Assembly (NCBI GenBank): GCA_947589685.1
Contig: CANQCN010000010.1
Coordinates: forward strand, 1 to 38,796
DNA length: 38,796 nucleotides
Origin: an uncultured Clostridia bacterium
GTDB lineage: Bacteria; Bacillota; Clostridia; Christensenellales; CAG-314
Direction: 5' to 3'
Shown here: in pieces, positions 18,326 through 38,796 of the stretch
Numbering within the stretch: the first letter of the stretch is position 1
Layout of the letters: each line of letters starts with the position of its first letter
The notes under the pieces: model-generated
The model's input: only the letters and a program-made list of their open reading frames with translations
The model's database searches: none
What the model was told of the DNA's origin: nothing
Program-made: the position numbers and the translations under genes

Positions 18326-18554
18326 GCAGATGGGGAGGGTTGTTAGGTGAAGTTTCGCGCGTTACGCGAAGTGAAGTACGCGCAAGCGCGTGTGAAGTAT
18401 TTCGACATTCGTCGAAATGTGAAGTTTTGCGGCTACGCCGCAAAGTTGAGGTCGGGACATCAGTTAAACGAGCGGGCTTGTTACCATTCGGACTGTGATT
18501 GGTGATAAAATAGGTAGATTGAATTAAGATTTGCTTTTTTATCCCTCTTCCACC
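18326..18554 (+). repeat. Hairpin-array element, copy 1
   Basis: GTGAAGT-spaced palindromes TTCGCGCGTTACGCGAA, ACGCGCAAGCGCGT, ATTTCGACATTCGTCGAAAT, TTTGCGGCTACGCCGCAAA, then GTTGAGGTCGGGACATC...CCCTCTTCCACC shared with 38440-38660. Confidence 0.92.
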
Positions 18555-18572
18555 GCTTACGCGGTCCCCCTT

Positions 18573-18605
18573 CCCCGTAAATCTCGTTGCACTCGATTGA
18601 CGGGG
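18573..18605. repeat. Isolated stem-loop
   Basis: CCCCGT-aAATCtcgttgcactcGATTg-ACGGGG. Confidence 0.6.
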
Positions 18606-18723
18606 ACGGTTAAATGTTAATGTTATGAACTTTGTCTCCGCGAATGGGGGTGGGCGGCGGGGGCGTGGATACGGTGGGTCTACCGGGAGCGAGTATGTCC
18701 CCATGCAAAATAATCTGCAACAA

Positions 18724-26777: not shown

Positions 26778-27911
26778 TTATTTGATCGTGGGCAAATAAG
26801 CGTTGCCCTCCGCCACAAAAGTTCCCTCGACGATCTTGTCTTTTTCCTTTTCGACATCGAATGAGGAACCGAACAGCATTTCTTTCAATACGCAGTTGTC
26901 CAATACGATATTTTCGAATACGCAGTCTCCGTGCGCCTCGCCCGCCATGAACGCGTAAAAGTAATTTTGCGGAAGATTGTTGACTATGCGGCCTTGTACC
27001 GAGCAATCCTTGAAGGTGACGTTGCGTATCGTGGCTCCGTTAAGCTGCGAAAACAATCCGATATACATGCTTGCGGCGCCGGTACCGAGCGCGTTTTGGC
27101 GCAGATAGTTGAGGTTGGATATTACGTGACCGTTGCCCTCTATCACGCCGTTGAACACGTTAGGCGCGGTCATCTTGGTGTAGCCGTCCTCGTCCGCAAG
27201 GGAGGACATATCTATGTCGTTCATCAGGTACAGTCTCGCTCCCGCGGAAACGGAACGCAGATCCGACGCTTGCCTTATCAAAGTCCAACTGCCGGAGATA
27301 AATTGCGCGTACAGCTCGCAAACGGGCTCTTGCTGAGTGCAGCCGTGCGCAAAAGGCTTGTCGGCGGAAACCTCGAATGGTTCGGTGCATTGTTCGTCGG
27401 AAAACAGTTGTACAAACGTGTTTCCCGTCCAACTCGGTACGGAAACAAAGGTGATCTCGGCGGCGTTGTCGCCGATGTTGAAGTAGCTGTCCTCTTCGGA
27501 GAGCGTTCCGTCCAACAAATAGTTGAAATGTATGCGATATTGCACTTCCCACTTGCCGTAAAGCGTTATATCCTCGTAGACCTTGTCGGAAAAATCCCAT
27601 TTTTTGCCGTAGCTTACGGTGCCGTCGTCGTTCAACGTGCCTTCGTAGTAACCCGCAAACACAAATCCCATCGCGATCGGAGCGGTCGTATCTTTGGTCA
27701 CGCCCGGTTCGGGAATGGGAGAACCGGGTTTAAGACGGTAGTCCAACACGCCCGATTTCAAGCTGTCCAACACCGCTTTGACCGTGTTGCCCTGCTCTTG
27801 TACGAATTGATTGGGATCTTCGCTCCGCTTGCATGCGGCAAGCAACGCAACGCTTGTTGCAAACAGCGTCGCGCACAGCGCAAGAAGCAATATTTTCGTA
27901 AATTTTTTCAT
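26778..27911 (-). CDS. Surface lipoprotein with InlB-like and GLUG-like segments
   Basis: Lipobox LLAAC; ITLYGKWEVQYRIHFNY; FNGVIEGNGHVISNLNY..YIGLFSQLNGATIRNVTFKDC. Confidence 0.78.
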   Translation of the reverse strand: MKKFTKILLLALCATLFATSVALLAACKRSEDPNQFVQEQGNTVKAVLDSLKSGVLDYRLKPGSPIPEPGVTKDTTAPIAMGFVFAGYYEGTLNDDGTVSYGKKWDFSDKVYEDITLYGKWEVQYRIHFNYLLDGTLSEEDSYFNIGDNAAEITFVSVPSWTGNTFVQLFSDEQCTEPFEVSADKPFAHGCTQQEPVCELYAQFISGSWTLIRQASDLRSVSAGARLYLMNDIDMSSLADEDGYTKMTAPNVFNGVIEGNGHVISNLNYLRQNALGTGAASMYIGLFSQLNGATIRNVTFKDCSVQGRIVNNLPQNYFYAFMAGEAHGDCVFENIVLDNCVLKEMLFGSSFDVEKEKDKIVEGTFVAEGNAYLPTIK

Positions 27912-30900
27912 TAGTCCTCCTCAATGGGCAAAATGTAATCCGCCAATCTGTTGAGACCTGAGTTCCAAGCCGCTTTGTACGCTTCCACGCTGTCGGCGGG
28001 AACATATATTTGCGCGCTGGTCAGACTGAACACGCCTATTCCGTTGGGATAAGCGTCGTTGCGATAGGAGTCGAACAAAATGCCGCTGCCGGGGTGCAAC
28101 ACGGGCACGTCGGCGGCGCTTGAAGCGTGCTTGTAGACGGTGAAGCTTCTGAGACGCGGATTTTCCGCAAAGGAGCCGCCCGTGATCGTTTGCAGCGCGA
28201 CCGCCTCGTGTTGCGGCGAGCCTATCGTGACCTCGGACAGATATTCGCAGCCCGCAAAGGCAATGAGTCCTATCTCTCTGACGGAGGCGGGCAACGCAAG
28301 CTTGGTGATAGCGCTTATGCCGAAGGCGCTTGTGCCGATCTTTTTGAGACGGCTGTTCGCCGCGTCGAACGTCAACTCGATAAAGTTGTATTGAATATCG
28401 TCGTCGCCGTCGGCTGCCAAAGTGCCGTTTACTCCGACGTAAGTGAATGCGCTTTGTCCTATTTCAACGATATTGTCGCTGAGTACCAACCGAGAAACTT
28501 TGGAGCCGAGAGTTTGATTGCCCGTTGAAGAGTCGGTACTCGACTCCGCAAGGAACGCCGCGCTCCCTATCGTAAGGTCGTTGCTGCCGCCCTTGAATAC
28601 GATGCTTTCCAAATCGGCGATCACCGCAAAAGCCAGATCTCCTATCGAAGTGACGCCGCTGCCGATGACAACGGACTTGATGTTGTCGCTGTCGTAGTAG
28701 GCGTAGTTGCCTATCGTTTTGACGGTGTCGGGGATTATCGCTTCCGTGAGCGACGTGTTGAAAAACGCCGCCGATCCCACGCTTGTGTAATCGTTGCCAA
28801 CGTCGAACTCCGACACGCTGGTGCAGTAAGCAAAGGCGTTGCGGGGTATCTCGGTCAAGCCGCCGCTGACGACGATGCGTTTCAGCAACGGCGGACATTT
28901 TTCCGCGGAGACGTTGATGTTGTCGTTGGCTCCCGACGTCACCGTCGCGCCGAATACGTAAAGCATATAGTTGTTGCTCGTACGGCTGCCGCCGACAAAG
29001 GGCACGGTCAGCTCGGTGAGCTTGCTCATACCCTCGAAAGCGCCGAACTCTATCCTCGAAACGCTGTTGGGCACGGTGAGGACGGAAACGGAGCTTTTGT
29101 ACAACGCTCCCGACTTGATGGAAGAAACGGTCGGAGCAAAATTCAGGTCCGTCTTGGCGGAAGGAACAAACACCAATTCCGTTTGCGACTTGTTGTACAA
29201 CGCGCCGTCATAGACCGAATACGCCGAGTTGCTCGGCGCAACGGAAAATTCGGCGAGATCGGCTGCCCCGTGGAAAGCGGCGCTGTCGACCGAGGTCACT
29301 CTGCCGCCCAATTCGAAAGAGGTAAACGCCGTGTAGCCGAAGGCGTATTTGCCAATGGATGCCACGTTGTCCAATCCCGAAACGGATTTCAAGCCGTTGC
29401 AGCCGTAAAAGGCGTAGTCGGCAACGCGAGAGAGCGAATAGTTTGTAAAGACGATCCGTTGCAACGTCGCGGGCACGTACAATCCCGTAGACGTGTTGCG
29501 TTCGGGAGAGCCTGCGCCGAACCAATAAGCCACAAACGGATAAGAATTGTCGATGTCGCTGACGGTAAGCTCGGTCAACGCTTTCATTCCTTCAAGCGCG
29601 GACGCGGCGATATTTTTGCCCGAAAGATCGAGGTTCTTGATGACCGTATCTCCCCAAAACGCGTAAGATTCGATAGATGAGATACGTCCCGACGGCGTGT
29701 AACTGTCCTCGTTTTTGTTGACCTCAGTCTTGAAGTGCAGCACCAGCTTGTTGCCGTCGGTGAGAGTGCCGTTGTCGCCGTCCACGGCGTAATTGGCGTT
29801 GCCGCCCGTCATTTCCGAAATATTCGTGCAGCCCTTGAATACCGCTTTGCCCAACGTGTTGAGCGCGGCGGGAATATGGACCTTTTTTACGCCGCTGTTT
29901 GCAAACGCGTAAGGATAGATCGTGGTCACGCCGTCGGGAATATCGACTTCCGTCAAAGACGAACAGTTGACGAAAGCGTCAGAGCCTATTTCCGTCAATT
30001 GACTGCCGAATTGCACGCTGTCGAGCTGTTGACAGTTGGCAAACGCTCCTTCGGGGACGGTAGCAAGGAGAGAAATATCCGCGTTGCCGTCCAGCCTCTC
30101 GCAACCGCCGAAAGCAAATTTGCCGAGAACGGAAACGTTTGAAAGGTCTATCGCGGAAAGATGACTGCATTTGTAAAAGGCATAGCTGCCTATCGAAGCG
30201 ACGCTTTGCGGCAAAAACACTTGTTCCAACTCCGCGCCCTCGAATACGCCGTCGCCTATCGCAACGATAGTTGTTCCGCCGTGCTTGGACGGGACGAATA
30301 TCTGTTTGCCATCGCCCGTGTAGTCTATCACCGAGCCGCCTCCGTACACGAGCCCGACGCTTTCGCGAATGCCGTACAGAGTAACGTCGCTATCGACAAC
30401 GCTGTCGAAATCGAAAGGAACGGTCGTTTGCTCATTGATGTACCAGGTGCAACTTATATCCTCGCCGACAAACGGTTCGGCAACTTTTTCTCCCGCGGGA
30501 ACGGGGATCTCCGTCGCGTCGTCGAGAACGAATTTCACATAGTTGTAGCCGTTGCTTTTGCCCCACCTTGCATAAAGAGTAAGCACGCCGGACGCAAACG
30601 GTCCCGATACATACGGCTGACCGTCCTCGGTGTACCAGCCCTCGAAAGAATAGCCCTCTTTTTCGGGGACGGGCAACATATCCTGTCGCACGGTATCGCC
30701 GACGGTTCCCACCAGCTCGCTCTCCGCGCTGCCGCCGTTGCTGTCGAAAACTATCTTGCCGCTTTCGGCGGGCAGCCAACCGGCATAGACGGTCACGTCG
30801 GAGTTGGGCATACGGCGGAAGTCGAAGGGCGTGGTGAGCGCCTCGTCGGCGTACCAATTGTCAAAGGTAAAGTACTGTTTTGTCGTGACGGGAGGCTCGA

Positions 30901-31054
30901 TCTTGCCGCCGCCTCTGAAAACGACGGGGTCCACCTCCGTGCCTCCCTTGGTATCGAAGATCGCGGTGTGTTTTCCTCCGCATGCGCCGAGCGTAAACAA
31001 TGCCGCGAGAAGCAAAACAACCAGTATCGCAACAAATTTGCTATTTGTTTTCAT
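27911..31054 (-). CDS. BspA-like leucine-rich-repeat lipoprotein with N-terminal InlB B-type repeats
   Basis: Lipobox TLGAC; IVFDSNGG..EGYSFEGWYTEDG..LTLYARW; repeated SIGSYAFYKCSHLSAIDL-type LRR_5 units. Confidence 0.9.
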   Translation of the reverse strand: MKTNSKFVAILVVLLLAALFTLGACGGKHTAIFDTKGGTEVDPVVFRGGGKIEPPVTTKQYFTFDNWYADEALTTPFDFRRMPNSDVTVYAGWLPAESGKIVFDSNGGSAESELVGTVGDTVRQDMLPVPEKEGYSFEGWYTEDGQPYVSGPFASGVLTLYARWGKSNGYNYVKFVLDDATEIPVPAGEKVAEPFVGEDISCTWYINEQTTVPFDFDSVVDSDVTLYGIRESVGLVYGGGSVIDYTGDGKQIFVPSKHGGTTIVAIGDGVFEGAELEQVFLPQSVASIGSYAFYKCSHLSAIDLSNVSVLGKFAFGGCERLDGNADISLLATVPEGAFANCQQLDSVQFGSQLTEIGSDAFVNCSSLTEVDIPDGVTTIYPYAFANSGVKKVHIPAALNTLGKAVFKGCTNISEMTGGNANYAVDGDNGTLTDGNKLVLHFKTEVNKNEDSYTPSGRISSIESYAFWGDTVIKNLDLSGKNIAASALEGMKALTELTVSDIDNSYPFVAYWFGAGSPERNTSTGLYVPATLQRIVFTNYSLSRVADYAFYGCNGLKSVSGLDNVASIGKYAFGYTAFTSFELGGRVTSVDSAAFHGAADLAEFSVAPSNSAYSVYDGALYNKSQTELVFVPSAKTDLNFAPTVSSIKSGALYKSSVSVLTVPNSVSRIEFGAFEGMSKLTELTVPFVGGSRTSNNYMLYVFGATVTSGANDNINVSAEKCPPLLKRIVVSGGLTEIPRNAFAYCTSVSEFDVGNDYTSVGSAAFFNTSLTEAIIPDTVKTIGNYAYYDSDNIKSVVIGSGVTSIGDLAFAVIADLESIVFKGGSNDLTIGSAAFLAESSTDSSTGNQTLGSKVSRLVLSDNIVEIGQSAFTYVGVNGTLAADGDDDIQYNFIELTFDAANSRLKKIGTSAFGISAITKLALPASVREIGLIAFAGCEYLSEVTIGSPQHEAVALQTITGGSFAENPRLRSFTVYKHASSAADVPVLHPGSGILFDSYRNDAYPNGIGVFSLTSAQIYVPADSVEAYKAAWNSGLNRLADYILPIEED

Positions 31055-34000
31055 CGTCTGCCTCCTTTGCGTCGTCCGCGGCGACGGCTTTGCGTTTTTT
31101 AAGCACCAGCACCGTCGTTACTATCGCCGCAGCGACTATTATCGCCGCCCCTATCGAAAGGAACGTGGGCAGCATCCAACCGTCGGACGGTTTTTGCGGT
31201 TCGGGCGGTTGGTTGGGATCTACGGAAACGCTCAATTGTTCTTCCGCCTTGGCAAGCTTGTCGATATTCGCTACGCTTGCGACGATCTCGCCGCTTGCAC
31301 GATCGAGCGCGTTGCGCAATGCGTAAACCTCGTTGCGGTCGGCTTCGGTAACAATTTCGGGCAACGCCGCGATGCGGTCGTCTATCACCTTGGCGAGCTG
31401 TTTTTCCAATTGCGGCAGCTTGTCGGCAACGTCTTTCAAAAACGCCTTTTGCGTTTCGTCCAGCGAATTGTAGATACGTCTCAACAATACCAACTCGGAC
31501 AGGTCGTCGATGGTGAGCGTTTCGACGTTCATCGCTTTGAGAGAGTCCTCCATATCCATAGTGGTCTGCGTGCGCACCACCGTATCCGACGATGTGAGGT
31601 TGTTAGCCATATACTGCTGCCAATTGTAAGCGTCGTAGCCGCTGCCGTTTTTGGGATAAATCACCGTGACGGCGGAGCTTGCGCCCGTTTCAAAAGTGTT
31701 GTAACCGTGGCTGTCAATGCCCGCCTCGCTGTCGTAGAACGTCTCCAACACGGGCGCCGCGGCGCAGTTGAGAGTTATGTTTTGCAGCGCGGTGCAGTGA
31801 TAGAACGCTCCCTCGCCCAACGCCTGCAATCTGTCGGGGAGAGTGATGTCCGTAAGATGAACGTTGTTTGCAAAGGCGTAAGCCTCCACGCGCACCGTCC
31901 TTGCGTCGGCTGTATACTCCGTCTTGAAGTTGCCCTCTTCGTCGGCGTTGGCAACGGGATAGTACACCAACATCACCAAGCCGTTGGGCAGATTTTTGTA
32001 CAACACGCCCTCGTCGTCCACAAAGTAAAGTGCGTTGTCTGCGGATACCGTAACTTTTTCCAAACGGCTCGCTCCGTAGAATGCTTGTCTGTCTGCCGTT
32101 TCGAAGTCGGCGGGCAAGTCAAGCTGTCTGACTGCGGTACTGCCGAAAGCGGACGTGCCGATACTGCGCAATTTGCCGAAGCTTACGTTTGCAAGCTTGG
32201 TCGCGCCCACGAAAGCCTCTCTGCCCACGGACTGCGCTTCGGGCATGTCGAGAGATGTAAGGGACGAACAGTTGTAAAACGCGCGGTCTTGGATATTTAC
32301 CGCTTTGGGTATCTCAACCGTGACGAGCTTGGTGCAGGATTGGAACGCCAATTCGCCTATCGTTTTTGCTTCTTCCAAAATGACCGTTTCCAACGAGGTG
32401 CAGCCGCCGAACGCGTTGGCGCCCACTTCGATGAGGTTCGGCGCCCACACGGAGGTTATCGAGCTGCGCACAAACGCTTCCGTACCGACGCTTTCGACAT
32501 ATCTGAGGTCGATATTCTGCAAAGGACTTTGATCGTAACCCGTGAGGTCGGCGTTGTACTTTGCAAACGCGCCTCCGCCGATACTCTTTACCGAACTCGG
32601 CAGGTCGACGGATCTGAGTTGGTTGCAGTTGAGGAACATAAAGTCCGCTATTGCGGTGAGATTTTGCGAAAGCTTGACGCTGCTCAACGACGTGCAGTAG
32701 CCGAAAGCTCCGTAGCCAACGCTCGTGATACTGTCGGGCATATTGATCGTCGTAAGCATCGGACAGTAAGCGAAAGCAAATTCGCCGATACTCTCCAAGC
32801 CGTCATTGAAGGTGACGCTTGCCAGATTGGCGCTTTGAGCGAACACGTTGTTGCCCAAATTTTTGAGATTTCTGCCCAATCTGACCCTCGTGAGCTTTGT
32901 GTTGAAGAACGCGCTGTCGCCGAGATGAACGAGAGTGTCCGGCAATACCAGCTCTCCGCTCAATCCGAATGTGGTAAGCACGGTGTTGCTTGTGGGGATG
33001 AAGAACGCGCTGTCGCCGATGTACTCGACGCTGTTGAAGCACGTCTGCCATGCGCGGAGATTGCTTGCGCCGTAAAATGCGGCTGTGCCGATGTATGTGA
33101 CGTTGCCGAGATTGAGCGAATCCAACGCCGACGCGGAATAGAACGCGTAATCGTCTATCACGGTCACGTTTGCGCCCGTAACGGACTGTACGCGCGTCGC
33201 CGCAAATGCGTTTGCGCCTATTTCCGTCACCGTTGAGGGCAAAACGACGTCCGACTGCACGTGTCCGTAGGGGAACAACAGCACCTTGCGCATGGCTTTG
33301 TCGAACAAAATACCGTTGTTGGCGGTAAGGTAGGGGTTGCCCTCCTCCACCGTGAAAGCGCTCAATCTTCTGCACCCGTTAAATGCGCCGGGATCTATCG
33401 CGGTAAGCTTTGCCCCGTCCGAAATTATCACTTCGGCAAGGCTGCTGTAACTTGCCAGCATATCGTTGTCGTAACCGTAGGCTTGCGTGCCGAGATATTC
33501 CACGCCGTCGGGTATCGTGACGGAAACGAGGCTCAGGCAGTCGGCAAAGGCAAAGCTTTCTATCACGCGCACTTCGCTGCGGTAATTTACTTCGGAAAGC
33601 GCCTGACAGTCGTAAAACGCCGCCATACCTATGGTGTCAACGGCATTGTTGACGGTCACGGAGCCGAGCGACGAACACTCGGCAAAGGCAAATTCGCCTA
33701 TGGCGGGACCGTTGAGGGTCACCTCGGTAAGTCCCACGCAGCCGTAAAAGCCGTAGTCTCCTATCGGCGTGAAGGGACCCGTGATTATCTGCGTTACGCG
33801 AGAACACAACGCAAACGCCATTTGTCCCATCGATTTGATGTTTGTTATATCCAGCACGTTGAGAGACTCGCAATACATAAAGGAGCGAGGTCCCACCGAG
33901 AACACGTGATCGAAGCTGATGTCGTCCAGCGCGCCGTCCATAATAAACGCCATTTCGCCTATCGTGCTTACGCCGCCGAGGTCCACTTTTTTAAGAGAGG

Positions 34001-37000
34001 GGTTCCAAGCCAAAGCCCACTTGTCCAGAGTTTTGCAGCTTTCGGGCAAAACGACCTCTTCCAGCTTGTCGCAGCCGTAGATAGCCGCTTCCATTATCTC
34101 CGTCACGCCGTCCGGCACGATTATCTTGGTGATGTACGGATTGTCCATAAAGGCGTACATATAAATAATGGTGATGCCGAGATCGTCGGGTATCTCCACG
34201 ACGCCGTTTTCGTCGCCGCGACCCGTGTAACTGCGCAGATAAACGCCCTCCACCTCGTACTCGCTCTTGACGGAAATGGAGCAGCTGTTGCTTACGCGCG
34301 ACGTGGAGTTGCTGTCGATGACGTTTACCGTTGCCGAGCCGCTGCGCAGCAACCTTACCGTCACTTCGCGCGAACCTCTCACCGTGTCGGTAAGCACCTC
34401 GTTGCCCTGCTCGTCGTGGGTGACGAACACGGAAATGCCTGCCGAAGTAGTCCACACAAGGTTTACGTCGGCAAATTTGTCCGCCCCCGCAACGTCCGCA
34501 AACAGATCGTTGGGGACAAGAGCCTCCGCTTTCAAAGTGATCTCCTCGCCGCGTTCGACGGTGGCGGAGGTTTTGTTGAGCTGTATCTGAGCAAGATTTA
34601 TTTTGTCCGTGCGCGCTTCGCGTACGGTGACGGGCAGCGAGGCTTCGGCGCTGCCGTCAAGATTGCTTACGTGCAATGTGGCTGTGCCTTCCGCAAGACC
34701 CAGCACAACGCCGTCCTTGACGACGGCTACGGGAGTATCCGTTGCGTTGCCTTGGGCGTCCTTGCAGTCGTCTATCCACCACTGCATATCCTTAACCCAC
34801 AGATTGTTGGGGACAGTGGTGACTTGATCTTTAAGGTCCGTCGTCTCGTTGACGCGCGTGTTGACGGCGCGCATTGTGCTGCGGAAGCCGATCTGTTCGG
34901 CGTTGGACGAGGGCAGTTGCAGTTGGAAAGAGGAACGGTTCTTGGCGTAGTCGATAAGCTCGACGAAAATGTTGCCTCCGTTCGCCTGAATATCCGTCCA
35001 ATATTCGGTGATGTCGTAGCTGATACGGTTTACGCTGTTGCGTTTGTTGCCGTCGGACATAGGAATGATGTTGTTGTGGAACGCCACGCTGTTGGCGAGG
35101 GTCCCGTCGGCGTTGATAGAGCCGAACGTTCCCAGACGGTAGCCCTGAATGTAGTGATTGTCGTAGACGTAAACGTCCAAAATGTAACGTTTGTTGACTC
35201 CGCTGCCCTCAACGCGCACCTGCGTTTGATCGCCCACCACTACGGGCGCTTCGTTGTCGATGTAAAAGTCGAAGCTGAACGTGTTTTTGAGGTTGCCCTC
35301 GGTGGTAGCCCAATCCAGCTCGCACTCCATAGTAAAGGTAAACTTGCCGTTGTTGGGAAGGTCGCGTTCGTTGATATAAAAGTCTACCAACGCCATGCCG
35401 GGACGTCTTCCGCCGGAATAGGAGGATTTGCGGCAGTTGTAGTCCTCGCCCTCCCATATCAGCTCGCCCGTAACGGCGTTGTTGATACGCATATTTACTT
35501 TTTTGGCGTTGCGCAAAAAGCCCGCGGCGATCATTTTGAGAGAGTAGCTGCCGTCCATATTGGCGGTAAGCGAGGCTTTGTCCTCGATGATCGCGGGTTC
35601 GGTGTAGCCGTCGGCGAGACGGTAGCCGAATTGTCCCATACCGTAGTAGGATTCCTCGTACTCCGTGGCGGAAATCAGATAGCGGAAGCCGCCCATAGGC
35701 AATGTGGCGTAAATGTCCGCTTTAAGCTTGTCCTCGTCGAGGATACCGCTGTCCTCTTGTTCCGCGCCCACCTCGTAGGCGGTCACGTCCAACATAGGAG
35801 CGACAGCCCAATCGCCGTAAAAGCCGAGGAAACCGATGTGCAGATCCACGTCCTTGTTGAGGGAGAGCAATTGAATGAAGCCCTCCACGTACATACCGTT
35901 GGAAAATGTTTTGTCAAGGTAGCTTTTTGCCGCGTCGGAAAGGGTCAGCGTCACGGTAACGGTCGCCGTGGCGTAGCCGCCGAGAATGATCGAGCCTTTG
36001 CCGCCGAGCACCACGCCGTTGCCTTCCGCCTTTACCGAAAAGTCGGTATCGCCCAGCATATACGCCTTTTGCGCCACGGTTTTGTTGTCCGATGAAAGCG
36101 ATTCCGTCATCACGATGGGGTTGACGGCATAGCTTTGCGCCAAAGCGGAAAGGTTGCGCACCTTGAAGGTCATTGTGTAAACGCCCTTGCGTTCGGGGTC
36201 GTCGCCGAGGGTCAGCTTGGGTTTGTTTGCGCCCTCAACGTAGATGTAGGAGCTTGACGTAGTGGATTTGGCAATATCCGCCAAGCCCGCGCCTTGCTTG
36301 CGGGGCGAATAGGGGTTGCCCTCTTCGTTGTAGGCTATGGTCGCGGTACTCATTATTAGCTGATAGGTCAATTCCGTCACTTCGTAAGGCGTAAGATCGG
36401 GGAAGCGTTCCTTTACGTATTGGCGGACGAGTATCGTTGCTCCCGCCATATTGGGAGCCGCCATCGAGGTGCCGCTGAAATAGTCGTAGCCGCCGCGCAC
36501 CGCCGAATAGATGTCGCCGCCGTGCGCCGTTATGTCGGGCTTAAATTCCAGATTGGGAAGCGGACCCCAGGAGGAAAATTCGGACATAAAAGGTCCCGCG
36601 ACGTACTGTTCGTCTATCACCAGCTTGCCCGTCGTGTGTTCCTCGAAGTACTTGCCGAAGTCCATAGAAATGGAGCAAGCGGGTATAGCTGCCTTGCCGA
36701 CGCTCATGCTTATCACGCCGGACACGTTGTTGTACACTATCGCGCCCACAGCGCCGTGGTTTTGCGCGTTGATTATCTTTTCCTCGAAGTTAAGGCTGCC
36801 GCGCTTGATGACGGCTATCTTGCCGTTTACGTCGATGTCGTAGTAGTTGCTTTCGCTGCCGAGACCGGGGATCACCACATAATCAAGCTCCTTGCGGGTC
36901 TCGCCGTTCAGCATTTCCTTGGCGAAGTCTCTGCGTTTGGAGCCGGTGTTGCCCGCCTCGGTAAAGTAGATCTCTTGTTCGCCGTTTACCAAAAGGTACT

Positions 37001-38261
37001 TGGTCTTTACGCCGGAAATACTCGCGACGGACATAGCTGCCTCGTAAGAGCTGGGGCTGCCCACCGTGCCGTAGTCGGGGTTGGTGGCGAGAGCCGTGTC
37101 GCCGTTTTCCGATTGATAAGCGGAAGAGTACTCGTTGCCGGCGGCGCAGATGAGGCAAATTCCCGCCTCGCGAATGGCGTCGTAAATTTCGTTGACCGCC
37201 TCGTCGTCCGCCTCGCGGGAGAATCCGCACGAAGAGCCGAGAGACATATTTATCGCGTCCACGCCCAACACGACGCAGTCGTTCAGCGCGGCGAGAATAC
37301 CCTCGGTGCTTGCGCCGCTTTCGTCCACGTTGGGAAACACCTTCATTATCGCAAGCTGCGCGTTGGTGGCAATGCCCGTGATGGTGTCGTCGTGTCCCGC
37401 GATGATGCCCGCCACGTGAGTGCCGTGGTCCTCGGTGGGATACACGTCCGCGTCGACGTCGGCGTAGTCAAAGGCAAAGGGCACCTTGTCGGATATATGC
37501 AGCTCGTCCGCCGTCAGCTCCACGCCCGCAGCCGCCGACATAGACGTAGCGGTAAAGCTGCTCAGCAACGAACGAATGTCGTCCATTTCTACTGCGAGAT
37601 TGCCCGTAGGCTGTTCGGCAAAGGCGGTGTGAGTGTAGTCCAAGCCCGTATCCAGCACGGCTACCACAGTACCCGTCCCGTCGTAGCCCACGTCGCCGGG
37701 GTCGTAAATGCCCGTCGAATAGACGTTTACTTCGTTTTGCGTCACCGCTTGCGGGGCAAGGTAGCGTTCGCACACGATAACGTCGTTTACGCGTTCGTCG
37801 CGTTGCAAAGCGCCTATGTCGCCGAAACGCACCTGCATAGCCATACCGTTGAACAGCGTGTTGTAACGGAAGCTGGTGTCGCGTATCACGGAGGCGTACT
37901 TGTCCGCAAAGCCGTCCTGCGCCTTGGCGATCTCCGCGGCTTGCGCAACGGCTTGTTCGCTGTTGATGTAGCCGTAAATATCATCGGGATCGCGCATTGC
38001 GCGGTCGAGAATGCTTTCGTCCTTGAAACGCACCACTACCCAAACCAACTCGTCCGCGTCGTAGCCGTCATAGCTCACGTCGGAGGTAAGCGCAAACTCA
38101 TCCGTAAGAGAGCGTACTCTGTCGGTTATGTCGGTAACCGCAACGGTTCCCGCAGCGTTCTGCTTCGTTTGCGACGAAAAACAACCGCAAGCGCTGCTGA
38201 CGATAAACACCATCAACAACGCGAGCGTAGCTAATCTGATCTTTTTTGTGTAAGCTTTCAT
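31041..38261 (-). CDS. Giant S8 subtilase with PA insert, BspA-like LRR region and C-terminal TM anchor
   Basis: AVLDTGLDYTH (D204), DHGTHVAGIIAGH (H282), AAGNE (N376), FSGTSMAAPNMAG (S599); PA-like GKIAVIKRGSLNFEEKIINAQNHGAVGAIVYNN; many AFxxCxxLxxVxIP repeats; C-terminal TM then KKRK. Confidence 0.94.
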   Translation of the reverse strand: MKAYTKKIRLATLALLMVFIVSSACGCFSSQTKQNAAGTVAVTDITDRVRSLTDEFALTSDVSYDGYDADELVWVVVRFKDESILDRAMRDPDDIYGYINSEQAVAQAAEIAKAQDGFADKYASVIRDTSFRYNTLFNGMAMQVRFGDIGALQRDERVNDVIVCERYLAPQAVTQNEVNVYSTGIYDPGDVGYDGTGTVVAVLDTGLDYTHTAFAEQPTGNLAVEMDDIRSLLSSFTATSMSAAAGVELTADELHISDKVPFAFDYADVDADVYPTEDHGTHVAGIIAGHDDTITGIATNAQLAIMKVFPNVDESGASTEGILAALNDCVVLGVDAINMSLGSSCGFSREADDEAVNEIYDAIREAGICLICAAGNEYSSAYQSENGDTALATNPDYGTVGSPSSYEAAMSVASISGVKTKYLLVNGEQEIYFTEAGNTGSKRRDFAKEMLNGETRKELDYVVIPGLGSESNYYDIDVNGKIAVIKRGSLNFEEKIINAQNHGAVGAIVYNNVSGVISMSVGKAAIPACSISMDFGKYFEEHTTGKLVIDEQYVAGPFMSEFSSWGPLPNLEFKPDITAHGGDIYSAVRGGYDYFSGTSMAAPNMAGATILVRQYVKERFPDLTPYEVTELTYQLIMSTATIAYNEEGNPYSPRKQGAGLADIAKSTTSSSYIYVEGANKPKLTLGDDPERKGVYTMTFKVRNLSALAQSYAVNPIVMTESLSSDNKTVAQKAYMLGDTDFSVKAEGNGVVLGGKGSIILGGYATATVTVTLTLSDAAKSYLDKTFSNGMYVEGFIQLLSLNKDVDLHIGFLGFYGDWAVAPMLDVTAYEVGAEQEDSGILDEDKLKADIYATLPMGGFRYLISATEYEESYYGMGQFGYRLADGYTEPAIIEDKASLTANMDGSYSLKMIAAGFLRNAKKVNMRINNAVTGELIWEGEDYNCRKSSYSGGRRPGMALVDFYINERDLPNNGKFTFTMECELDWATTEGNLKNTFSFDFYIDNEAPVVVGDQTQVRVEGSGVNKRYILDVYVYDNHYIQGYRLGTFGSINADGTLANSVAFHNNIIPMSDGNKRNSVNRISYDITEYWTDIQANGGNIFVELIDYAKNRSSFQLQLPSSNAEQIGFRSTMRAVNTRVNETTDLKDQVTTVPNNLWVKDMQWWIDDCKDAQGNATDTPVAVVKDGVVLGLAEGTATLHVSNLDGSAEASLPVTVREARTDKINLAQIQLNKTSATVERGEEITLKAEALVPNDLFADVAGADKFADVNLVWTTSAGISVFVTHDEQGNEVLTDTVRGSREVTVRLLRSGSATVNVIDSNSTSRVSNSCSISVKSEYEVEGVYLRSYTGRGDENGVVEIPDDLGITIIYMYAFMDNPYITKIIVPDGVTEIMEAAIYGCDKLEEVVLPESCKTLDKWALAWNPSLKKVDLGGVSTIGEMAFIMDGALDDISFDHVFSVGPRSFMYCESLNVLDITNIKSMGQMAFALCSRVTQIITGPFTPIGDYGFYGCVGLTEVTLNGPAIGEFAFAECSSLGSVTVNNAVDTIGMAAFYDCQALSEVNYRSEVRVIESFAFADCLSLVSVTIPDGVEYLGTQAYGYDNDMLASYSSLAEVIISDGAKLTAIDPGAFNGCRRLSAFTVEEGNPYLTANNGILFDKAMRKVLLFPYGHVQSDVVLPSTVTEIGANAFAATRVQSVTGANVTVIDDYAFYSASALDSLNLGNVTYIGTAAFYGASNLRAWQTCFNSVEYIGDSAFFIPTSNTVLTTFGLSGELVLPDTLVHLGDSAFFNTKLTRVRLGRNLKNLGNNVFAQSANLASVTFNDGLESIGEFAFAYCPMLTTINMPDSITSVGYGAFGYCTSLSSVKLSQNLTAIADFMFLNCNQLRSVDLPSSVKSIGGGAFAKYNADLTGYDQSPLQNIDLRYVESVGTEAFVRSSITSVWAPNLIEVGANAFGGCTSLETVILEEAKTIGELAFQSCTKLVTVEIPKAVNIQDRAFYNCSSLTSLDMPEAQSVGREAFVGATKLANVSFGKLRSIGTSAFGSTAVRQLDLPADFETADRQAFYGASRLEKVTVSADNALYFVDDEGVLYKNLPNGLVMLVYYPVANADEEGNFKTEYTADARTVRVEAYAFANNVHLTDITLPDRLQALGEGAFYHCTALQNITLNCAAAPVLETFYDSEAGIDSHGYNTFETGASSAVTVIYPKNGSGYDAYNWQQYMANNLTSSDTVVRTQTTMDMEDSLKAMNVETLTIDDLSELVLLRRIYNSLDETQKAFLKDVADKLPQLEKQLAKVIDDRIAALPEIVTEADRNEVYALRNALDRASGEIVASVANIDKLAKAEEQLSVSVDPNQPPEPQKPSDGWMLPTFLSIGAAIIVAAAIVTTVLVLKKRKAVAADDAKEADDENK

Positions 38262-38439: not shown

Positions 38440-38660
38440 GCAAATGGGTAGGAGAAGTTTGACGCTGCGCGTCAAGTGAAGTTTCGGCTGTCGCCGAAGT
38501 GAAGTATTTGCCTTGCGGCAAATGTGAAGTTTTGCGGCTACGCCGCAAAGTTGAGGTCGGGACATCGGTTATACGAGCAAGCTTGTTACCATTCGGACTG
38601 TGTTGGTGATAAAAACAGAGAAATTGAATTAAGATTTGCTTTTTATATCCCTCTTCCACC
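38440..38660 (+). repeat. Hairpin-array element, copy 2
   Basis: Palindromes TTGACGCTGCGCGTCAA, TTCGGCTGTCGCCGAA, ATTTGCCTTGCGGCAAAT, TTTGCGGCTACGCCGCAAA spaced by GTGAAGT, then the GTTGAGGTCGGGACATC...CCCTCTTCCACC tail. Confidence 0.92.
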
Positions 38661-38796
38661 TCGTCCTCCCACGCCTTGGTCAGCACCAACCGCATACAAT
38701 GCGGTCGGTACCGCTGACAGGGTGAATTATACTTTCAAGTGCAACACCCGAAGAAAAAAAAAGAAGTTCATATAAATCTCTGGTATAATGGTAGTT

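Follow-up and report, generated by a model that had tools for sequence, protein, structure and literature searches.

The window analyzed here is a 38,796-nucleotide stretch of DNA from an uncultured Clostridia bacterium, and it contains two heptamer-hairpin arrays on the plus strand, each made of four GTGAAGT-hairpin units followed by GTTGAGG. The repeated hairpin arrays reported in an initial annotation of this DNA are real. Copy 1 is a complete array at positions 18347 to 18451. Its four GTGAAGT heptamers (18347-18353, 18371-18377, 18392-18398 and 18419-18425) are each followed by a hairpin, TTCGCGCGTTACGCGAA at 18354-18370 (slot-1 allele TTCGCGC), ACGCGCAAGCGCGT at 18378-18391 (slot-2 allele ACGCGC), ATTTCGACATTCGTCGAAAT at 18399-18418 and TTTGCGGCTACGCCGCAAA at 18426-18444, and it ends in the terminal heptamer variant GTTGAGG at 18445-18451. 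Hairpin 4, which is nearly invariant across the genome, has the loop GTA on the bottom strand with a C-G closing pair. Copy 2 (38452 to 38556) reads GAGAAGT-TTGACGCTGCGCGTCAA-GTGAAGT-TTCGGCTGTCGCCGAA-GTGAAGT-ATTTGCCTTGCGGCAAAT-GTGAAGT-TTTGCGGCTACGCCGCAAA-GTTGAGG, with GAGAAGT at 38452 and GTGAAGT at 38476, 38499 and 38524. The spacer, previously described as invariant, is GTGAAGT at seven of the eight positions, the one mismatch being the GAGAAGT that opens copy 2. The array had been placed at 18326-18554 and does lie within that interval, but it starts at 18347; positions 18326-18346 form the tail of a different repeat module. Each of the eight hairpins is a perfect palindrome; hairpins 1 to 3 are wholly different between the copies, hairpin 4 is identical, and the spacers recur at 24, 21, 27 and 26 nucleotides in copy 1 and at 24, 23, 25 and 26 in copy 2, as had been claimed.

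Each array is followed by a 3' module, TCGGGACATC...CCCTCTTCCACC, at 18452-18554 and 38557-38660 on the same strand; GTTGAGGTCGGGACATC begins at 18445 in copy 1 and at 38550 in copy 2. This module comes after most arrays of the window's genome, but because another module (e.g. CGAGTTTAGAATGTCAAACCCC) can occupy the 3' position, it is a separate unit of a mosaic. We observed that the intergenic DNA at 18326-18346, 18543-18640 and 38660-38720, and at two other loci (L022 and L255), is likewise a mosaic of more palindromic modules, including CCCTCTTCCACC-hairpin-GGTCCCCCTTCCCCGT-hairpin-ACGGGGACGG, TCGTCCTCCCACGCC...GGTGCTGACC and AAGTCGCTCG..., some of them nested within the hairpin of another and with inner stems that are also freely variable. 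The region from 27911 to 38261 has two ORFs next to each other on the same strand, one for a BspA-type leucine-rich-repeat protein of 1047 aa that contains Flg_new repeats and one of 2406 aa that perhaps encodes a large surface protein of similar kind.

Genomic copies were collected, as the initial annotation had proposed. In the 1.475-Mb genome of the window (79 contigs), the pattern GTGAAGT-N(8-30)-GTGAAGT occurs 52 times, compared with 0 occurrences of a reversed-pattern control, so these heptamer pairs do not arise by chance. The genome holds at least 18 arrays, a minimum since many contigs end near an array, as happens when repeats interrupt an assembly. Within one genome, each hairpin slot has two to four alleles; the main ones in the window's genome are TTGACGC, TGC and TTCGCGC in slot 1, TTCGGC and ACGCGC in slot 2, and ATTTCGAC, ATTTGCC and TTGCAC in slot 3, and the slot-4 stem TTTGCGGC is nearly fixed. 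In two congeners (G002 and G012) the four slots are retained and the stems in them are mostly different, and several arrays of different species lie at apparently orthologous intergenic sites. A slot stem is common to 37-89% of array pairs within a genome but to only 1-10% between genomes, indicating that hairpins are homogenized or exchanged inside a genome. In three copies, the sequence after the first, second or fourth heptamer is that of another element (AAGTCGCTCG...), and these junctions suggest that heptamers may serve as exchange joints. At the right end of a tandem array on contig C17 of the window's genome (L011), we also noted a minimal unit, GTGAAGT-TTGACGCTATGCGTCAA-ACTTCAC, in which inverted heptamers flank a single hairpin and which is a possible fold-back product.

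The arrays are patchy across Clostridia. A triple-heptamer pattern was found in 24/396 genomes of the order and 14/391 of the class, spanning many families, although a few of these positives are single, possibly chance, matches; the reversed control gave almost no matches in either set. The heptamer is conserved in many families while the hairpins turn over. Named contigs with true arrays come mostly from gut or rumen Clostridia and Oscillospiraceae metagenome assemblies, and many of them hold two arrays facing one another; in such double-array forms the arrays are inverted, an arrangement that the window's single arrays lack. The chromosomal strand of the arrays, assigned by GC skew, is without clear bias (32 versus 21), so a dependence on the lagging strand is unsupported. 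A BLAST search with the array against phages and plasmids returned no match.

In a set of 617 array-neighboring ORFs, PF05635 (23S rRNA-intervening-sequence protein, IVP) is the family found repeatedly directly beside arrays, and IVP genes lie near GTGAAGT arrays in five genomes. In a relative (G251), the IVP gene has a GTGAAGT array on one side and inverted arrays (ACTTCAC) on the other, and in the terminal unit GTTGAGG-AATA-ATG (GTTGAGGAATAATG) the GTTGAGG is the ribosome-binding site of the IVP gene. The terminal GTTGAGG of the window arrays matches this ribosome-binding heptamer, and the window arrays share the terminal architecture of heptamers, hairpins and GTTGAGG that stands beside the ORF in IVP-bearing units. 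Other heptamers with hairpins (GTTATAT, GTGATAT, GTGATGT, ATGAAGC and GCTAAAT) adjoin further IVP genes, and loci with heptamers other than GTGAAGT include L385, L388, L398, L402 and L406. Plain tandem heptamers, typically inverted on the opposite side, accompany IVP genes at 27/51 loci and at 0/21 control loci, all from one gene family (M20 peptidase), and are present at 9/9 named plasmid IVP loci inspected from Bacteroidota, Spirochaetota, Bacillota, Cyanobacteriota and Chloroflexota. A histogram of palindrome-to-palindrome linkers at IVP loci had a slight excess at 7 that was swamped by coding-region palindromes, and it was replaced by the array scan. We found no report of the inverted heptamer arrangement around IVP genes in the open-access literature. 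At three loci (L378, L380 and L414), the IVP-associated heptamers are G-rich and in about four units (GGGATTA x4, GGGAAAA x4 and TAATGGG), and could form G-quadruplexes in place of hairpins.

In the set of 396 genomes, PF05635 is present in 15/24 with arrays and in 90/372 of the others, a co-occurrence with p = 1.4e-4. PF05635 is nevertheless absent from the window's genome (G000) and from its close relatives G002, G012 and G014, and for this reason we regard the window arrays as probable non-autonomous derivatives and not as autonomous IVP elements. A link between arrays and reverse transcriptase was rejected, as PF00078 is absent from G000, G002 and G012. Two congeners do carry a reverse transcriptase beside a weak, Avd-like PF05635 match (G020:C23:29970-31452 and G024:C40:2871-4228), and these loci are probably DGRs. 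We know of no nuclease activity or established function for IVP. An AlphaFold2 model of an array-adjacent IVP (pLDDT 91) matches 2gsc and the S23-family structure 2rld (TM 0.90/0.96), with a more distant resemblance to the DGR protein Avd (4dwl; TM 0.78/0.86); kinship of the IVP fold with Avd has been noted earlier (PMC10053308).

A survey of 500 heptamer-to-heptamer slots gave 483 hairpins, of which 318 are distinct; 213 of the distinct ones are perfect over their full length, so that pairing is kept despite the turnover of stems between genomes described above. Loop composition is asymmetric when read on the ACTTCAC strand: triloops are GNA in 78/173 (mirror type in 5), tetraloops are GNNA in 68/112 (mirror type in 1), and 267/285 are closed by a C-G pair, compared with about 28% C-G closing and few GNA- or GNNA-type loops among control palindromes outside arrays. 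Internal mismatches, often tandem, are G.A on the ACTTCAC strand in 37 cases versus 2 on the other strand (p = 3e-9). GNA and GNNA loops form extraordinarily stable DNA minihairpins (PMC4686876). The cGNAg and cGNNAg loops, the C-G closing pairs and the tandem G.A, all confined to the ACTTCAC strand, suggest that this strand folds as single-stranded DNA. As DNA, copy 1 folds far better than its shuffled versions on both strands (z of -5.9 and -4.8), and in its top-strand fold the heptamers are unpaired direct linkers.

The initial annotation had attributed this sequence-independent pairing either to strong selection or to a mechanism that regenerates stems, an interpretation that our data support in part. 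Pairing is indeed kept, but within one genome the hairpins are shuffled alleles as opposed to stems regenerated freely. In addition, 14 distinct hairpins have tandem TC/CT mismatches that recur and are retained instead of being corrected, which points to selection for one-strand folding more than to purely mechanical regeneration. These mismatches also bear on the proposal that the arrays need no dedicated machinery, being products of template switching during replication (quasi-palindrome correction) and gene conversion, with an incidental link to IVP. This proposal gains from the array-rich genomes that lack both IVP and reverse transcriptase, from the single-hairpin GTGAAGT-hairpin-ACTTCAC form, and from the slot alleles and module swaps after the first, second and fourth heptamers, which resemble exchange or template switching. 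Correction, however, would neither retain the tandem mismatches nor give one strand its GNA/GNNA loops, and it leaves unexplained both the conservation of a 7-mer across families and the inverted heptamers around IVP genes. We consider this explanation rather improbable.

The covarying stems, conserved linkers and stable hairpins are also consistent with a structured RNA, either a cis-regulatory element or a small RNA, in which GUGAAGU linkers would join four hairpins. An RNA would be expected to favor GNRA tetraloops and to contain many G.U pairs. In contrast, G.U pairs on the GTGAAGT strand are under about 1% and, on either strand, hardly above A.C (on the ACTTCAC strand, G.T and A.C mismatches number 32 and 19; p = 0.09), and the tetraloops of the ACTTCAC strand are GNRA in 30 cases and GNYA in 38, which is no GNRA preference. 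Orientation to neighboring genes is not fixed either (++ 29, +- 25, -- 20, -+ 9, by rough gene calls), and an Rfam check, as the initial annotation had recommended, found no covariance-model match to a known RNA family at the gathering score in the window. We judge a structured RNA to be an unlikely account of the arrays.

Dispersed intergenic hairpins adjoining a short constant word, apparently recognized as single-stranded DNA, recall REP/BIME-like elements and their mobilization by a Y1 transposase of the IS200/RAYT type, and a Y1_Tnp gene is present in G000 and G012. Yet Y1_Tnp also occurs in the array-less congeners G004, G005 and G008, in array-rich G002 the gene is reduced to a broken fragment and G014 lacks it, and we discarded the Y1 link for want of any correlation with arrays within the genus. 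Array stems are also not conserved between genomes, unlike those of REPs, and movement by a Y1 transposase is, in our assessment, very unlikely. Chance and a degenerate protein repeat can be dismissed, given the pattern control and a spacing that, as the initial annotation had argued, is no multiple of three.

The window arrays are, in our view, probably end-pieces that are IVP-less and non-autonomous; they would derive from a family of small mobile elements in which heptamers bound a PF05635 ORF. Mobility is seen on plasmid pC052_A of Nostoc sp. C052, where an IVP gene between four TTCGTAA and four TTACGAA replaces 197 bp of a sister plasmid; the right flanks are 99.85% identical, and no target-site duplication is seen in this one clean case. 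A pattern scan of viral contigs gave matches that were mostly coding or chance by their spacing, and one informative contig from the gut, with two 211-bp double arrays, both IVP-less, one between tail-tube and tail-chaperone genes and the other after the portal gene. These arrays are absent from 79/80 tail-tube relatives and 32/33 portal relatives, the exception in each case being the viral contig itself, demonstrating a lineage-specific gain; target duplication was not seen at the double arrays, and entry by replacement of target DNA is suggested. At one of them (L572, 1677-1887), the first heptamer provides the stop codon of the tail-tube gene (CAG TGA AGT). At the left neighbor of the window array, an M20 peptidase gene, the array is absent in 22 relatives, a comparison that is uninformative since downstream gene order is not conserved. 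Counting against the mobile-element reading, the array-rich genomes G000, G002 and G012 have neither PF05635 nor PF00078, and the spreading factor is not visible there.

In the mechanism that we propose, a full element would consist of heptamers with or without hairpins, a PF05635 four-helix-bundle ORF (IVP/S23p, Avd fold), and inverted heptamers with or without hairpins; in the class of the window's genome, the heptamer is GTGAAGT, with a hairpin between heptamers. The heptamer may be a conserved recognition word read by IVP, and hairpins would be retained because of a need for the ACTTCAC strand to fold while it is single-stranded DNA. Elements would enter intergenic DNA by replacing a short target stretch, as in Nostoc once and as suggested by the phage contig, with an IVP-coated single-stranded intermediate annealed at a replication fork by host enzymes as a likely route. 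Hairpin cassettes would be swapped between the copies of a genome, probably at heptamers, and the window arrays would be non-autonomous relics or passengers.

These elements resemble IVS/S23p elements such as the Coxiella burnetii IVS, a small selfish element with a PF05635-type gene and tandem heptamers, (GACAGAT)3, directly upstream of the S23p ORF (PMC4990558). In the present elements, however, heptamers lie on both sides and inverted, the location is intergenic or operonic instead of inside rRNA, Clostridia heptamers are often separated by hairpins, and the window copies have lost the gene. DGRs, whose Avd has the IVP fold, offer a close functional parallel, as the retrohoming target needs a DNA hairpin with an arbitrary GC-rich stem and a 5'GRNA loop, a requirement of structure and not of sequence (PMC3240598), and stem sequence is free in both. 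The array-rich genomes, in contrast, are without reverse transcriptase, no template or variable repeat was seen, and the GNA/GNNA loops follow no second-base rule and are often 3 nt, compared with the 4-nt GRNA loop. The heptameric G-rich repeats of Xanthomonas and Nostoc are 7-bp, intergenic and in some cases inverted, with four units most often in Xanthomonas, and were described without a partner and as generally not tied to mobile elements (PMC4692102). Those repeats are without hairpins between units, whereas the heptamers described here bracket IVP genes, including on Nostoc plasmids. REP/BIME elements with RAYT share dispersed, mosaic intergenic palindromes with near-perfect stems, but in the arrays stem sequence is free, the heptamer is fixed and Y1 is not linked. 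With respect to MITEs, inverted arrays are seen in the double-array forms, the window's arrays being single, and the Nostoc element is without target-site duplication in its one clean case. Integron attC sites also fold as bottom-strand single-stranded DNA of variable sequence with 7-bp core sites, but these (RYYYAAC/GTTRRRY) are paired inverted repeats, whereas array heptamers are direct linkers, unpaired in the top-strand fold.

More tentatively, IVP/S23p elements could be a widespread, unrecognized class of mobile DNA that encodes neither nuclease nor polymerase, in which an Avd-fold pentamer would bind inverted heptamers on single-stranded DNA and insert by target replacement at replication forks; GTGAAGT arrays would be their hairpin-armored non-autonomous form, and orphan bacterial heptamer repeats their footprints. 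PF05635 proteins, annotated as 'ribosomal S23' or 'four helix bundle', would gain a specific and directly testable DNA partner, orphan heptamer repeats of bacteria would gain a possible origin, and the arrays would represent natural collections of unrelated DNA hairpins, hundreds in number, that are apparently selected for one fold. We also observed IVP genes with heptamers inside defense operons whose neighboring genes are unbroken (L559, L561, L564 and L565), between type I restriction subunits in Monoglobus, adjoining DISARM drmD in Planktothrix, and between helicase and methylase genes in Chlorohelix.
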